From an uncultured Allobosea sp. (GTDB lineage: Bacteria; Pseudomonadota; Alphaproteobacteria; Rhizobiales; Beijerinckiaceae), in assembly GCF_945957345.1 (NCBI RefSeq), contig NZ_CAMFKW010000015.1, positions 1-64,000 of the forward strand: a DNA stretch of 64,000 nucleotides, in the 5' to 3' direction. The translations under genes and the position numbers were made by a program. The notes below the pieces were generated by a model. The model was given only the letters and a program-made list of their open reading frames with translations. It was not told the origin of the DNA and did not search any database. Positions 22,644-58,473 of this stretch are shown one piece after another; the stretch's first letter is position 1, and every line of letters begins with the position of its first letter.

Positions 22644-23246
22644 ATGCAGCCCTTCACCACGCTGACCTCGACGCCCGCCCCCATGAAGGTGGTCAATGTC
22701 GACACCGACATGATCATCCCGAAGCAGTACCTGAAGACGATCAAGCGCACCGGCCTCGGCACCGCGCTGTTTTCGGAGATGCGCTACAAGGACGACGGCT
22801 CGGAGAACCCCGATTTCGTGCTGAACCAGCCGGCCTATCGCAAGGCGGAAATCCTCGTCGCCGGCGACAATTTCGGCTGCGGCTCGTCGCGCGAGCACGC
22901 GCCGTGGGCGCTGCTCGATTTCGGCATCCGCTGCGTGATCTCCACCAGCTTCGCCGACATCTTCTACAATAACTGCTTCAAGAACGGCATCCTGCCGATC
23001 AAGGTTACCCCGCAGCAGCTCGACATGCTGTTCGACGATGCCGAGCGCGGCTCCAACGCGACGCTGACGATCGACCTCGCGAACCAGACGATCAAGGGTC
23101 CGGATGGCGGCGAGATCACCTTCGAGATCGACCCGTTCCGCAAGCACTGCCTGCTCAACGGCCTCGACGACATCGGCCTGACCATGGAGAAGGGCACGAA
23201 GATCGACGCCTACGAGGAAAAGCTGAAGCAGCGCGCTTGGGCTTGA
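22644..23246 (+). CDS. leuD: 3-isopropylmalate dehydratase small subunit
   Basis: 200 aa. Swivel-domain partner of LeuC. Diagnostic segments: [21 protein letters not shown], the active-site loop [15 protein letters not shown] and [20 protein letters not shown]. Normal length. It ends 16 bp before a palindromic repeat associated with the GIY-YIG gene. Confidence 0.97.
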
Positions 23247-23257
23247 GCGACAGCGGA

Positions 23258-23629
23258 CTAGCAGCCCTCATCCTGAGGAGCCGTTCCGTCAGGAACGGCG
23301 TCTCGAAGGACGGGGGCTGCGGGTCGATTGCCGCGTTTTGAGAGCGTTCGAAGACGGTCAAACTGCCCGGCGACAAGAGCTTCTTTCTTTCGGCGAGACC
23401 AGCCCTTGATCCGACGTTCCATTGCAATCGCGTCGGTGATAACCGGGAAATGCTGGGCAAACACTAGCTCGACAGGAAGACGTGTCGCAGTGAACGAGTT
23501 CTCGTACCGCTTAGTGTTGTGCTCAGCGACACGCTTCTCCACAGCTTCGCGTGTCGAGCCGGTATAATAGGAATCGTCGGCGCAGCGAAGAATGTAGACC
23601 CAACACCCATCTGCGTCTTGCATTCCCAT
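23258..23629 (-). CDS. Small GIY-YIG nuclease
   Basis: 123 aa. Single GIY-YIG domain: VYIL (11-14), YYTG (21-24), an arginine around Arg33 in KRVAEHN, and the catalytic glutamate probably Glu71 in AMERRIKGWSRRKKEAL. This matches the short YhbQ/UPF0213-like class. Residues 104-123 (AAPVLRDAVPDGTAPQDEGC) are encoded by repeat copy A, so the tail is not part of the fold. ATG 23629 is listed; ATG 23623 has better spacing to the GGGGAG ribosome site. The gene fills the interval between two inverted family-2 palindromes and nothing else, inserted between the convergent leuD and DUF1501 genes. Role in repeat movement is inferred only. Confidence 0.88.
   Translation of the reverse strand: MGMQDADGCWVYILRCADDSYYTGSTREAVEKRVAEHNTKRYENSFTATRLPVELVFAQHFPVITDAIAMERRIKGWSRRKKEALVAGQFDRLRTLSKRGNRPAAPVLRDAVPDGTAPQDEGC
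23263..23312 (-). repeat. REP-like palindrome, family 2, copy A (type-2 end)
   Basis: Starts AGCCCTCATCCTGAGGAG, then the hairpin CCGTTCC-GTCA-GGAACGG, then CGTCTCGAAGGACG. It is the left member of an inverted pair with copy B (23666-23716) around the GIY-YIG gene and encodes the last 17-20 residues of that protein. Homologous to 57924-57967, which shares the AAGGACG inner end. Confidence 0.85.
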
Positions 23630-23665
23630 GCTCCCCAGATGCGTCGGTTTTGAGTGTCCCGCGTA

Positions 23666-23716
23666 CTCTGGACCATCCTTCGAGACGCCGCTTCGCGGCT
23701 CCTCAGGATGAGGGCT
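23666..23716 (-). repeat. REP-like palindrome, family 2, copy B (type-1 end)
   Basis: Read on the minus strand: AGCCCTCATCCTGAGGAG, hairpin GCCGC-GAA-GCGGC, GTCTCGAAGGAT, then GGTCCAGAG. It lies about 37 bp upstream of the GIY-YIG start and is inverted relative to copy A. Its inner end (AAGGAT..TCCAGAG) matches copy C in uvrC and not copy A, so the two ends of the element differ. Confidence 0.85.
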
Positions 23717-23734
23717 CTGCGTTCGAAAGCAATA

Positions 23735-24988
23735 TCAGACCACCAGCCCCTGCAAAGGCTTGAGCCCACCCGTCTCCGGAAACACCTTCTCGGCCAGAAC
23801 CGGCCCAGATAAGCCGAAGAGCTCCGAGACCACCCCCTTGGCCACGGCCCGGACATCCGTCGTCGGCTTGAGATCGCGGTTCTGGTAAAGCTGCTCGGGC
23901 TTCAGGCCGGGCCAATCGGCAACCACCCGACCGCCCTTCACGCCGCCTCCTATGAGGAAGGCGACCGTGCCGGTGCCATGATCGGTCCCGGTCGTGCCGT
24001 TGACCGCAGCGGTCCGGCCGAACTCAGTCGCGACCATCACAACCGTATCCTTCCAGACCGGTGCCAAGCCCTGCTCGAAGGCGGCGAAGGCGCCATCGAG
24101 CCCGCCGAGCAGATTGGCGAGCCTTCCCTTGGCCCCGCCTTCGTTCGCATGGGTATCCCAGCCTTCGAAGGCGAGCGCGGCGATGCGCGGCCCGTCATCG
24201 GCGCCGACCAGCCCCGCCGCGCCTTCGGCGATGCGGCGCATCCCGTCGGCCGTGTCAGGCCCGCCGCCACCCTTCTGCTCGCCGGCCATGCCGCGCCTTT
24301 GCGCGACCCCTTCCGTTTCGATCGCCTCTGCCAGCGCCCGCGCCAAAGCCGGATCGCGCTGGCCATAGAGATCGGCAAGCCGCATCGTCAGGTCGCTGCC
24401 GGCGCGCGCCATCCGCGGCGGCGCCCAGCCCAGCACGGGCGCGGCGCCGCGCACCACCAGCGGCGGCACGACGCCGACACCGAGTACGCCCTTGCGCGAG
24501 ACGCCGTCGCCAGCCGGCAGATTGGCGATAAGTCGGTTGAGCCAGCCGCTCTGCGTGTGTCCCGCGCCGGGCTGGCCGCTTTCCAGAACGTCCTGCCCGT
24601 CGAAATGCGAGCGCTCGCGATAGCCCGTCGCCGCGGCATGGACGATCGTCGCCTGCCCCTGCTTGTAGAGCCGCGCCAGGTTCGGCATCGCCGGATGCAG
24701 GTAGAAGAACCCGTCGAGCGGCAGCGCCGCCTCCGGCCCGTCCTTGGCGAGTGCGATGCCCTCGCGCAGGCCGGCATAATCGGGGTCGCCGATCGGCGGC
24801 ACGGCCGAGAGCCCATCGAGCGCGCCGCGCAGGATGACCAGCACGAAGCGCGGATCGCGCGCACCCGCCGCCGCATAGGCGAATTTCGGCACGAAGGACC
24901 AGGCGAAGAGGGCGCCGGCCGCACCGAGCACGGCGCGGCGCGACGGCGTCATCCGTTCGCAATCGTCATCGTCGTGAGGAGCCATCAT
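23735..24988 (-). CDS. DUF1501 protein, Tat-exported
   Basis: 417 aa. ATG 24988 is chosen because GGAGG lies 7 bases upstream; a GTG at 24994 would overlap that site. The N-terminus has a Tat-like motif (SRRAVLGAAGALFAW). The body fits DUF1501, a domain of the sulfatase/alkaline phosphatase-like superfamily: FVLVILRGALDGL, HPAMPNL, VATEFGRTAAVNGTTGTDHGTGTVAFLIGGGVKGG. Operon with the upstream DUF1800 gene (stop and start regions nearly touch). The two domains occur together widely in bacteria but their function is unknown. Confidence 0.88.
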   Translation of the reverse strand: MMAPHDDDDCERMTPSRRAVLGAAGALFAWSFVPKFAYAAAGARDPRFVLVILRGALDGLSAVPPIGDPDYAGLREGIALAKDGPEAALPLDGFFYLHPAMPNLARLYKQGQATIVHAAATGYRERSHFDGQDVLESGQPGAGHTQSGWLNRLIANLPAGDGVSRKGVLGVGVVPPLVVRGAAPVLGWAPPRMARAGSDLTMRLADLYGQRDPALARALAEAIETEGVAQRRGMAGEQKGGGGPDTADGMRRIAEGAAGLVGADDGPRIAALAFEGWDTHANEGGAKGRLANLLGGLDGAFAAFEQGLAPVWKDTVVMVATEFGRTAAVNGTTGTDHGTGTVAFLIGGGVKGGRVVADWPGLKPEQLYQNRDLKPTTDVRAVAKGVVSELFGLSGPVLAEKVFPETGGLKPLQGLVV

Positions 24989-24990
24989 CG

Positions 24991-26463
24991 TCACCTCCGC
25001 TGGAATTCTGGCGACATCAGCAAGAGCGCGATCGCCTGCGGCTTGCTCTCGGCCCGCGCCACCGCCTGCTTCGTCTCAGGCGAGAGGAGCGGTCCGAGGA
25101 TGTCGTCGGCGAGCACGCGCGGATCGGCAACCGTGCCCGCGGCCTGTCGCCCCCAGCCGGCAGCGACGTCGACCCGCGTCTTGAGCCCTTCGGCCGAACC
25201 CCAGGCGGCATTGCTGTCGGCGTATCCGTTCGGGCCGGAAGGCTGCCAGAATGGCTGGCCCATCACGCCGACCGGGCCGATGATCTGGCCGAAATCCGGC
25301 TTGCGGCCGAGCGCGCGATAGGAGGCCAGCATGAATTCCTGCGGCGACCGGATCTTTGTGGCCGGCGCCATCCACGCGGATTCGCTGCCGATCAATGCCT
25401 GGTAGACCGCCCTGAGGTCGCCGTCGCTGTCGCGGAAGGTCTTGGCCAGCGCTTCGACGAGAGGTGGCGGCGGGTCGTCTGCCACGAAATGCCGCACGAG
25501 CTTGGTCGCGATGAAATGCGCGGTCGCAGGCTGATGGGCGAGATCGGTCAGCGCCGCGACGCCTTGCGCCAGATCCGGCTGGGCATAATCCCGGCCAAGC
25601 AAGGGCGTCGCCCCCGGCTCATGCTGGCCGGGATTGAAGATGAAGGAGCCCGGGAAACCGAGCCGCCCATCACGCCCCGCCATCGTCCATCCCGTGAGGA
25701 TGCGCGCGAGGTTGGTGACGTCGGCCTGGCTGTAGCCGCCGGAGACGCCGAGCGTATGCAACTCCATGATCTCGCGCGCGAGATTCTCGTTGAGCCCACG
25801 GCCTTGCCGGCGGCCCGCGGGTGAATTCGGCCCGATCGACTGGCGGTTATCGAGAAAGTCGAGCATCGCCGGGTGGCTTTCCGCCGCGATCAGCATGTCC
25901 TCGAAGCGGCCGAAGACATGCGGGCGGATCGCCTCGCGCTCATAGGCACCTGCCATGATCCGCCCGATATTGCTCTTGGTCGCACCGATGCAGAAATGGT
26001 TCGACCAGAACATCACCAGCCGCTCACTGAGGCCGGTTTCGGCCGTAAGCGCGAGATCGACCCGCGCCTTCACCTCGTCGCGATAGGTCCGGTATGGCAG
26101 GGCCGGCTCGTTCGGAGGCTTCGCCGCAGCCATCTGGTTCTGCGGCCCGGCCGGTTGCGCCTGCGGTGCGGCGCCCGCCATCTCCATGGCCTGCGGCGAG
26201 CCCGGCGCAGGCCCCGCGGCAGCGATGCGGCGCGCCTCGCGCTCCCGCTTCTCCTGATCCTCGAAAGCGAAGAGAGCCTTGCCGATCTCGACGGTGCCGG
26301 AGAAGTGCACGCCCTGGGGCCGCGCGACGCCGCCGGCCGCGATCTCGGCCAGAAGCCTATCGCGGATCTGCGCCCGGAAGGCCTCGCCCTGGCCGGGCTT
26401 CGGTCCGAGACCGAAGCGCTGCAATGCCACCGCTCCCGCCGTCAGCTCGCCCGATCCTGCCAT
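24991..26463 (-). CDS. DUF1800 protein
   Basis: 490 aa. ATG 26463 has GGAG nine bases upstream; an in-frame TTG at 26469 is too close to it. Recognised by the DUF1800 pattern: LQRFGLGPKPG at the start, MFWSNHFCIG (~residue 150), LNENLAREIMELHTLGVSGGYSQADV and GWTM, then ATKLVRHFVADDPP. A ~70-residue low-complexity insert rich in Ala, Pro and Gln lies at ~75-120. No clear signal peptide of its own, unlike its DUF1501 partner; it may depend on that partner. Role unknown. Confidence 0.88.
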   Translation of the reverse strand: MAGSGELTAGAVALQRFGLGPKPGQGEAFRAQIRDRLLAEIAAGGVARPQGVHFSGTVEIGKALFAFEDQEKREREARRIAAAGPAPGSPQAMEMAGAAPQAQPAGPQNQMAAAKPPNEPALPYRTYRDEVKARVDLALTAETGLSERLVMFWSNHFCIGATKSNIGRIMAGAYEREAIRPHVFGRFEDMLIAAESHPAMLDFLDNRQSIGPNSPAGRRQGRGLNENLAREIMELHTLGVSGGYSQADVTNLARILTGWTMAGRDGRLGFPGSFIFNPGQHEPGATPLLGRDYAQPDLAQGVAALTDLAHQPATAHFIATKLVRHFVADDPPPPLVEALAKTFRDSDGDLRAVYQALIGSESAWMAPATKIRSPQEFMLASYRALGRKPDFGQIIGPVGVMGQPFWQPSGPNGYADSNAAWGSAEGLKTRVDVAAGWGRQAAGTVADPRVLADDILGPLLSPETKQAVARAESKPQAIALLLMSPEFQRR

Positions 26464-56349: not shown

Positions 56350-58473
56350 ATGGAGACCATGAATCGCGAGCGCCAGGACGACCTGCCCCAGGACGAGTTC
56401 GAGGACGAGGAGGACGCCCTCCCCGCCGAACCCGCGCTCGCCATCGCCGAGACCGCGCCCGGCGCGCTCAACGCCGGCATCGAGGTCATCCAGCAATTCG
56501 CCAAGCATCTGCCCAACAGGCCCGGCGTCTACCGGATGTTCGATCGCGCCGGCGAGGTGCTCTATGTCGGCAAGGCCAAGAGCCTGAAGAACCGCGTGAC
56601 TTCCTATGCCCGCGGCATGGCGCATACCAACGCCGTCGCCCGGATGATCGCCGAGACGGCGAACATGGAGTTCGTCACCACCGGCACCGAGACCGAGGCG
56701 CTGCTGCTCGAGTCGAACCTGATCAAGCAGCTCCGCCCGCGCTACAACGTGCTGCTGCGCGACGACAAGTCGTTTCCCTATATCCTGCTGACCGGCGACC
56801 ATGACGCGCCGGCGATCCTGAAGCATCGCGGCTCGCGCCAGCGCAAGGGCGACTATTTCGGCCCCTTCGCCTCGGTCTGGGCGGTGACGCGCACCATCGA
56901 TGCGCTGCAGAAGGCCTTCCTGATCCGCACCTGCTCCGATTCTTTCTACGAGAACCGTACCCGCCCCTGCCTGCTCTTCCAGATCAAGCGCTGCTCCGGG
57001 CCCTGCACCGGCGAGGTCTCGATCCCCGAATACCAGGCGCTCGCAAGTCAGGCGCGCGACTTCCTTTCGGGCCGCTCCTCTGCGGTGAAGCAGCTCCTCT
57101 CCGCCCGGATGCAGGCGGCGGCGGAAGAGCTCGAATTCGAGAAGGCCGCGCGCTATCGCGACCGCCTCGCCGCGCTCTCGGCTGTGCAGGCCGGCCAGGA
57201 TATCAACACGCAAGGGGTCGAGGAGGCGGACGTCTTCGCCATCGACGAGCAGGCCGGGCAGTTCTGCGTCGAGATCTTCTTCTTCCGCAACCACCAGAAC
57301 TGGGGCAACCGCGCCCTCTTCCCGCGCGCCGACCGCTCATTGGCGCCGGCCGAAGTGCTCGCCTCCGTCGTCGCCCAGTTCTATGACGACAAGCCACCGC
57401 CGCGCCTCGTCCTGCTCTCGCACCCGGTCGAGGAAATCGAGCTGATCGGCCAGGCCTTGTCCGCCCGCGCCGGCCGCAAGGTCGAAGTCGCCCATCCCAA
57501 GCGCGGCGAGCGGGCCGACCTGATGGCCCATGCGGTCAAGAACGCCCGCGAGGCGCTCTCCCGCAAGCTCGCCGAGAATGCCGGGCAGCAATCGCTGCTC
57601 GCAGCACTCGGCGCCGCCTTCGGCATGGAGAGCGCCCCCCGCCGGGTCGAGGTCTACGACAACTCGCATATCATGGGCACGAACGCGGTCGGCGGCATGA
57701 TCGTCGCGGGCTCGGACGGCTTCGTGAAGAACCAGTACCGCACCTTCAACATCTCGACCGACACCATCGCCGGAGACGATTTCGGCATGATGCGCGAGGT
57801 GCTGACGCGGAGATTCGCGAAGCTGGCGAAGGAGAGCGGCGTCGACCTCAGCCCTCATCCCGAGGAGGCCGCGTCAGCGGCCGTCTCGAAGGATACTCCA
57901 GAGGGCTCGGGTGCCTCCTTGAACGTCCTTCGAGACGCCGCTGACGCGGCTCCTCAGGATGAGGGCTCGCGCGGGAAAGGCCGCAAGGCGCCGAAGCCGC
58001 GCAAGGACGAGGACGGCTTCCCCTCCCGCCCCGACCTCGTCATCGTCGACGGCGGCAAGGGCCAGTTCACCGCCGCGCTCAAGATCATGAAGGAGCTCGG
58101 TGCGGCCGACATCCCGCTCGTCGCCATCGCCAAGGGGGAAGACCGCAATGCCATGCGCGAGACCTTTCACATGGAGGGCCGGGAGCCCTTCAAGCTGCAG
58201 CCGCGCGATCCGGCTCTCTATTTCATCCAGCGCCTGCGCGACGAGGCCCACCGCTTCGCCATCGGCACCCATCGCGCGAAGCGCAAGCGCGAGACGATGA
58301 AGAACCCGCTCGACGAGATCCCCGGCATCGGCCCCTCACGCAAGCGGGCGTTGCTGCTGCATTTCGGCACGGTGAAGGCGATCCAGCGCGCCAAGCTCGA
58401 CGACCTCATGCGGACGCCGGGCGTGAATGCCGCGACGGCGAAGGCCGTGCATGATTTCTTTCACGATGCTTGA
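56350..58473 (+). CDS. uvrC: Excinuclease ABC subunit C
   Basis: 707 aa, longer than the usual ~610-650. It makes both incisions in nucleotide excision repair. N-terminal GIY-YIG domain (GVYRMFD at 59, [12 protein letters not shown] at 72), UVR domain ~235-275 ([17 protein letters not shown]), RNase H-like domain ([19 protein letters not shown], then [17 protein letters not shown]) and C-terminal HhH pair ([18 protein letters not shown]). Residues ~501-540 ([20 protein letters not shown]... to ...APQDEGS) are encoded by a pair of inverted repeat elements inserted in frame into the linker of the RNase H domain. The catalytic parts on both sides look intact. Confidence 0.95.
57850..57903 (+). 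repeat. REP-like palindrome, family 2, copy C (type-1 end), inside uvrC
   Basis: AGCCCTCATCCCGAGGAG, hairpin GCCGC-GTCA-GCGGC, CGTCTCGAAGGAT, then ACTCCAGAG. Its inner end matches copy B at the GIY-YIG locus. Paired with the inverted copy D 20 bp further on. Confidence 0.85.
57924..57967 (-). repeat. REP-like palindrome, family 2, copy D (type-2 end), inside uvrC
   Basis: On the minus strand AGCCCTCATCCTGAGGAG, hairpin CCGC-GTCA-GCGG, GTCTCGAAGGACG. Its inner end matches copy A of the GIY-YIG locus. With copy C it makes a 118-bp inverted doublet (57850-57967) that is translated as part of UvrC. Confidence 0.85.

Follow-up and report, generated by a model that had tools for sequence, protein, structure and literature searches.

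A GIY-YIG nuclease gene between inverted REP hairpins: a candidate REP-plus-nuclease module in Alphaproteobacteria

REP repeats are a common component of bacterial chromosomes, and those bearing the GTAG tag have a known partner enzyme, RAYT. On the RAYT side, in part as given in passages of two papers (PMC3733652, PMC8266576), the gene is framed by REPs, gene-less inverted dimers with a fixed spacing are abundant, and the gene copy number is low. The CGTC-tagged REP superfamily is characterised, in sections of a 2013 survey (Di Nocera et al. 2013; PMC3733652), by an outer tag CGTC, TGTC or CCTC, a stem of 8-9 bp, a loop of 4-5 bp and an arrangement mostly in head-to-head dimers, TT being rare; these repeats show insertions in repair genes and an alphaproteobacterial bias. 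According to the same sections, CGTC REPs seem to be without a dedicated transposase, a question that the survey left open, and its intragenic set excluded hypothetical proteins shorter than 120 aa (PMC3733652). Term searches of PMC3733652, PMC6006769 and PMC8266576 returned no occurrence of GIY, and among the papers listed by a PMC literature search, no title or opening of an abstract links GIY-YIG proteins with REPs.

Here we analysed a window, the whole stretch of 64,000 nucleotides from the draft genome of an uncultured Allobosea sp., in which a GIY-YIG nuclease gene of a clade hereafter called T1 lies between two hairpins. The features concerned are the following:

22644-23246, plus strand: leuD, the left neighbour (open reading frame; name from the earlier note)
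23258-23629, minus strand: T1 GIY-YIG nuclease gene, 123 aa (PF01541, 54.6 bits; domain at about 23384-23605)
about 23261-23320, plus strand: REP copy A, a complete hairpin with a TGAG/TCGA core, which encodes the C-terminus of the nuclease (motif match, fold)
about 23667-23716, minus strand: REP copy B, with a TGAG/TCGA core and the inner end ATGGTCCAG (motif match)
23735-24994, minus strand: the convergent right neighbour, a DUF1501 gene (open reading frame; name from the earlier note)
56350-58473, plus strand: uvrC, the gene in which the pair C/D lies (open reading frame, PF01541 match)
57850-57967, no strand given: gene-less inverted REP pair C + D, an in-frame insert in uvrC (sequence comparison, fold)

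An earlier note on this DNA had described A and B as inverted copies with a common outer end, enclosing a single gene for a 123-aa GIY-YIG nuclease whose last ~20 residues lie within copy A, the whole placed between leuD and the gene that converges on it. This description holds in each respect: CCTCATCCTGAGGAGC is present exactly in both copies, the reading frame on the minus strand is the only gene enclosed and matches PF01541, and the coordinates place both the C-terminal residues and the module where they had been put. When up to two mismatches were allowed, CCTCATCCTGAGGAGC matched four times in the window against a mean of 0.12 expected, and four matches were reached in none of 100 shuffles. 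The outer end reads CCTCAT in the window, CCTC being common to A, B, C and D. As single-stranded DNA, copy A folds better than 200 of 200 shuffles (z -4.2); for copy B the fold is not exceptional (z -1.3, 19 of 200 shuffles equally good). The inner end of copy B, ATGGTCCAG, resembles the inner ends of gene-less pairs. The inner ends of the pair in uvrC are also as previously given, AAGGATACTCCAGAG for C and AAGGACG for D. However, the proposal that two end types are the rule was rejected, as seven of the nine gene-less pairs of the window genome have TCCAG-like sequences at both inner ends (by eye).

The window protein has PF01541 as its sole Pfam domain, and the draft genome contains three matches to this family: the gene at the leuD site, uvrC and a truncated gene on contig C92. 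Residues invariant among 34 aligned T1 proteins (alignment A1) include Y12, Y22, G24, R33, E71 and K81, those of active-site type being presumably catalytic. The AlphaFold model of the nuclease (pLDDT 86.9) has UPF0213 1zg2 as its nearest fold (E 2e-5), followed weakly by Slx1 (E 0.009 and 0.03); the PDB relatives 1zg2 and 1ywl thus precede Slx1, with TM-scores by query of 0.43-0.48. By alignment and predicted structure, T1 possesses a GIY-YIG fold with conserved residues of active-site type, as in UPF0213/Slx1-like nucleases, and small GIY-YIG proteins of the UPF0213 kind and Slx1 would share its fold. Slx1 is a eukaryotic protein that works with Slx4, as the titles of PDB entries also say. 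The literature searched yielded no description of an association of UPF0213- or Slx1-type proteins with REPs. The T1 gene is under purifying selection: dN/dS is 0.12 between the window gene and the T1 gene of locus L034, and among ten T1 pairs, most of them saturated or nearly so at synonymous sites, six close pairs gave 0.07-0.14 and one distant pair 0.32, two being saturated and one identical. The overlap of coding end and repeat seen in the window recurs, as the stop codon lies in or past the downstream hairpin in 29 of the 57 T1 loci that have both hairpins.

The repeat is dispersed in the genome. In the window genome (a draft of 110 contigs), 14 copies with the exact core occupy ten sites; by eye, all ten are inverted pairs, one of them (contig C4) with a truncated partner, and the leuD site alone has a gene inside the pair. 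These and the other genome counts rest on exact string patterns, by which diverged copies are missed. In four related genomes we listed 139 copies (all from G012 and G036, the first 39 each from G037 and G006), and among the 48 adjacent copies less than 200 bp apart, 47 formed outward (head-to-head) pairs, one was a same-strand pair and none was inward. The spacer of these pairs was exactly 24 or 34 bp in 39 of the 47 cases, a difference of about one helical turn, and 25, 31, 33, 36 or 37 bp in the remaining eight. Gene-less pairs, which the earlier note had expected to be abundant, are therefore common and have a fixed geometry. Folded with default RNA parameters, which are indicative only, the pair L107 adopts a cloverleaf whose central hairpin is accompanied by two at the sides, and the pair C/D of uvrC folds back into one long hairpin. 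The majority letters of 146 hairpins flanking T1 genes are CTCATCC-TGAG...TCGAA-GGA, TGAG and TCGAA being fixed by the detector, and the gap from TGAG to TCGA measures 4 bases in 64 of them, 5 in 4, and at least 13, as in the window, in 78. A search against Rfam returned no family at the thresholds used, its sole match being mir-351, far below the gathering score; PHROGs, PADLOC and NCBIfam likewise returned no family at the thresholds used. With the CCTC outer tag of A to D and the predominance of head-to-head dimers (47/48), the T1 hairpins resemble, to judge from tag and description, the CCTC-tagged members of the CGTC REP superfamily. In a Dehalococcoidia record, a tandem array of short TGAG/TCGA-type repeats lies beside a T1 gene (L052:3340-3927) and gives the translation a 14-residue period.

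Is the framing of the gene by hairpins a general character of these nucleases? The flanks of relatives were surveyed at 60 loci from GTDB records and at loci of genus and order relatives; one of the six patterns used in the GTDB locus search was a REP-encoded peptide, so that framed loci could have been favoured. With a first detector only 9 of 90 loci showed hairpins on both sides, a weaker result that we attribute to the overlap of the downstream hairpin with the coding end. The detector was then loosened (boundaries, stem threshold, CGTC rule); the GTDB and genus loci served for this tuning, and a class sample was examined afterwards. The core-motif test was run without L001, L002 and L004 (window or uvrC), L003 (no hit), and L090 and L091 (whose match is confined to the REP-coded tail). 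Among the 50 loci scoring at least 70 bits, a set that contains the loci of three genomes twice, outward hairpins were present on both sides in 31 and on one side in 12, five having inward hairpins only and two none, whereas shifted controls gave both sides in 0 of 304 and any hairpin in 11 of 304. Below 70 bits (n=37), one locus had them on both sides, seven on one side and one inward only. By a motif-free measure, inverted flank similarity of at least 16 was found at 27 of 74 loci versus 1 of 315 shifted controls (this set skips 14 minus-strand matches, two short flanks, L003, which had no hit, L001 and L002). Among the loci framed on both sides are some from records titled Alpha- and Betaproteobacteria, Winogradskyella (Bacteroidota), Dehalococcoidia bacterium and Humibacter (Actinomycetota).

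The class sample comprised 387 Alphaproteobacteria genomes, in which a profile search scored up to 12 candidates for each genome; it used no REP peptide, but its profile derived from alignment A1, itself built from such loci. With a cut-off of 86 bits, set at a gap in the list from 86.6 to 79.6, T1 was present in 41 of the 387 genomes. The search gave 52 T1 hits, of which 50 were tested for flanks (without G124, at a contig end, and G289): including the window's own locus, 25 had outward hairpins on both sides, 16 on one side, two inward hairpins only and seven none, compared with 2 of 217 single 400-bp control windows with a TGAG/TCGA hairpin. After pooling and de-duplication, 96 distinct T1 genes were obtained, 52 with outward hairpins on both sides, 27 on one side and 17 without an outward one, and at some of these 17 (L045, L049, L074) the flanks are inverted but escape the motif; with the detector used, 16 of 103 T1 loci had an outward hairpin of neither type. 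GIY-YIG genes between outward hairpins thus occur in many taxa, as the earlier note had anticipated. The converse scan, over 1.20 Mb made up mostly of 8-kb loci chosen for T1, found 26 outward pairs of gene size, 23 of which enclose T1; of the three others, one holds a REP tandem array and one a small other ORF. A pair of outward hairpins around a small lipoprotein-like ORF, with no nuclease, was observed at L056:4459-4784.

On contig C92 of the window genome (L003), inverted hairpins of the GTCATCCCG type surround a truncated GIY-YIG gene of another type, T2, at ~1388-1442 and ~1648-1700 (by eye). As the hairpins of this T2-type case are different, the two clades were tested against the two repeat families. 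T2 proteins have the consensus WVYILASxxNGTLYVGVT, and the repeats flanking their genes were detected by GTCAT. Sixty weaker hits of the class sample, taken from the next 62 by rank (G461 and G298, with one hit each at contig starts, were skipped), were examined as T2 loci: CGTC-type hairpins stood on both sides in 13, on one side in 5 and inward only in 4, that is, in 22 of 60 in any arrangement, compared with any TGAG/TCGA hairpin in 2 of 60 and with 3 (CGTC) and 2 (TGAG) of 217 control windows. More than half of the 60 show neither hairpin type. At the genome level (192 genomes; T2 cut-off 89 bits, at a list gap from 89.6 to 65.8; CGTC REPs counted as CCC-stem copies, at least five per genome), CGTC REPs were found in 22 of 56 T2-positive versus 6 of 136 T2-negative genomes (p 5e-9), the T2 clade not being defined independently of its repeats because the 26 loci behind its profile A2 are CGTC-framed and in part belong to tested genomes. 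In the same 192 genomes T1 predicts TGAG repeats (13/21 vs 5/171) and is no significant predictor of CGTC REPs (5/21 vs 23/171, p 0.20), and T2 is no significant predictor of TGAG repeats (8/56 vs 10/136, p 0.17). A nuclease tree of 194 tips, 119 of them labelled, required three changes of repeat type versus a mean of 24.5 and a minimum of 18 in 200 shuffles, on a topology of few columns, with many unresolved forks and some near-copies. These data demonstrate that each nuclease clade is paired with its own REP family; the framing of T2 nucleases by GTCAT-type REPs is a further likeness to the CGTC superfamily.

The number of repeats also follows the nuclease. At least 20 copies of CCTGAGN{2,30}TCGAAGG were counted in 31 of the 41 T1-positive genomes of the class sample versus 16 of the 346 T1-negative ones (odds ratio 64, p 1.8e-25), reversed-pattern controls giving 0-6 per strand. 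Within the GTDB families that contain both kinds of genome, the T1-positive median was higher in 18 of 20, with a mean ratio of 5.7 (permutation p 2e-5), and two families (f120 and f44) had the opposite direction. The expectation that palindromes rise and fall with the nuclease is thus borne out across Alphaproteobacteria and within families. Among the exceptions, ten of the 41 T1-positive genomes have fewer than 20 cores, five of these fewer than 10, and one of the 16 repeat-rich T1-negative genomes (G095) holds broken pieces of a T1-like gene. The earlier note had also held that palindromes abundant in genomes without the nuclease would speak against its proposal, and part of this was found in the window's genus, where a strong T1 hit is present in 8 of 61 genomes and 11 of the 53 others carry at least 60 copies, up to 164. 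This genus is Bosea: in its domain, the G050 nuclease is identical to the one in the record Bosea sp. WAO. The median in this genus is 46 with a strong T1 and 20 in the others, with a one-sided p of only 0.041. When 15 genomes of the genus that lack T1 were searched with a profile, no match exceeded 73 bits (fragments below 36 bits were left out and one 41-bit fragment was included), and TGAG hairpins stood beside the match in none of the 30 loci fetched. A recent loss of T1 after repeat expansion could account for these repeat-rich genomes.

Comparison with close relatives revealed empty sites, as had been predicted. At uvrC (30 loci compared), the insert is absent from G043 and G016, where the compared segment measures 114 bp versus 219 bp in the window, and many near relatives retain an eroded in-frame copy of it. 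G012 and G027 have a REP pair that is missing in the window genome and in eight of nine other aligned relatives, the ninth (G042) holding another sequence; by eye, a 6-7 bp direct repeat, CTCAGA(G), is seen at the ends of this single site (L339, ~15066), possibly a target duplication. At the leuD site (30 loci), the full module is found in G000, the window genome, and in G047, where the nuclease match is in two pieces; G038 has hairpin A alone with the same inner end and neither the gene nor copy B; CGTC-type pairs occupy the site in G018, G050, G007 and G058, and neither type is present at most other loci. The intergenic site itself (window 23247-23734; L314, L332, L333, L336) thus holds TGAG-type repeats, CGTC-type repeats or none, depending on the relative, and is perhaps a shared insertion hot spot. 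In the uvrC linker of relatives (e.g. L293, L299, L304, L306), other in-frame inserts of palindromic appearance, of the CTCCCC...GGGGAG type, were observed, and on this ground the linker may be a place where small repeats of various kinds tend to insert.

In nine multi-copy genomes the T1 copies are only 72-78% identical to each other, so that no recent burst of the gene-bearing form has occurred there; near-identical gene-bearing copies, as in a classical insertion sequence, were not found in these nine genomes, and recent nuclease bursts were set aside as a source of the exact ends. By eye, two loci from different GTDB families (L146 and L163) apparently have a common insertion site, as judged from the flanking coding sequence. 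The T1 nuclease looks mostly inherited, as RAYTs likewise mostly are.

How does this module compare with the REPtron (RAYT/TnpA-REP with GTAG REPs/REPINs)? As in the latter, the T1 gene is framed by hairpins of a family scattered in the genome, and gene-less inverted dimers with fixed spacing are abundant whereas the gene copy number is low. The enzymes differ, T1 being a GIY-YIG protein with PF01541 only and the REPtron enzyme a HuH/Y1 protein (PF01797), and so do the hairpins, with a TGAG/TCGA core and a CCTC-like outer end in the window versus a GTAG tag. A search of the window genome for PF01797, the Y1/RAYT-type transposase domain, gave no match. We therefore file the T1 module as REPtron-like in its working but without the enzyme that defines a REPtron: a REP-plus-enzyme system whose enzyme is unrelated.

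We explain the architecture of the loci, the pairing of clades with REPs, the co-occurrence within families, the fixed dimer geometry and the empty sites by a REP-plus-nuclease module, a reading that we consider probable. The T1 nuclease would be the dedicated partner of REPs with a stem-TGAG-loop-TCGA-stem core, its own gene framed by two outward copies, and the gene-less inverted pairs would be scattered non-autonomous derivatives of the module. The REP pair may extrude as a cruciform, or may take a branched form by folding in single-stranded DNA; the nuclease would recognise the hairpin core and nick it, and repair of the break would copy, insert or preserve the pair. We infer both that the hairpins are recognised and cut by the nuclease and that cutting drives their spread. 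Recognition of an extruded hairpin or cloverleaf is favoured here because the title of PDB entry 6seh places Slx1-Slx4 on branched DNA. To our knowledge, strand-transfer activity is known for no GIY-YIG enzyme, and insertion at new sites would therefore need host repair.

Other explanations place the nuclease differently. It might be a host-domesticated, structure-specific endonuclease that resolves REP cruciforms and is kept by REP-rich genomes, the REPs spreading otherwise. The purifying selection on the gene, the old divergence of its copies, the insertion site apparently common to two GTDB families and the presence among the nearest folds of Slx1, a branched-DNA nuclease by entry title, are all consistent with such a maintenance role, but it leaves unexplained why the gene itself sits between two REPs in so many genomes, as well as the REP-rich genomes without T1 in the window's genus, and we regard it as rather unlikely. 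Less likely still, the REPs could be targets rather than products, a free-standing homing endonuclease targeting the pair and its gene copying into the middle. I-TevI-like GIY-YIG homing endonucleases are likewise encoded by small, mobile genes that lie close to the target of the enzyme; unlike them, the window protein is tied to a dispersed repeat family and has no further Pfam domain. The gene does occupy the spacer position of a gene-less pair, end B retaining the spacer start ATGGTCCAG, and nuclease presence is patchy within the window's genus; however, homing alone would not raise REP numbers in T1-positive genomes, and the apparent long retention at one site also argues against it.

That terminator-like REPs would by chance or general habit frame any small intergenic gene appears very improbable. 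REPs do lie between convergent genes, as at the window locus, and the outward pair at L056:4459-4784 encloses a different small ORF, but only 3 of the 26 gene-size outward pairs in 1.20 Mb enclose non-T1 content, and the specificity of clade for repeat would not be expected. Chance flanking was set aside on the shifted and far-window controls, mostly unmatched for intergenic position, and on the scan of gene-size pairs. Hardly any weight is given to the spread of these hairpins by RAYT (HuH Y1) transposases, with the nuclease a bystander: PF01797 occurs in 80 of the 387 genomes, in 14 of 47 with at least 20 cores versus 66 of 340 others (counted by eye), but is without a match in five T1-positive genomes with 11-165 cores (G000, G338, G083, G123 and G108), and for the window genome, which is one of them, RAYT was set aside as the driver on that ground.

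On the REP-plus-nuclease reading, a common family of bacterial repeats may have its missing handling or spreading enzyme in the T1-type nuclease, and GIY-YIG nucleases are strong candidates for the enzymes of these REPs. The clade-specific pairing provides a named candidate for CGTC REPs, for which the 2013 survey, in the sections cited above, reported none (PMC3733652). We give about even chances to the broader proposal of a second, non-HuH class of REP-spreading enzymes, in which at least two GIY-YIG clades would recognise their own hairpins, generate the REP dimers of Alphaproteobacteria and other phyla, and move CGTC REPs. If the nuclease drives the spread, this would be a propagation of DNA without a strand-joining enzyme.
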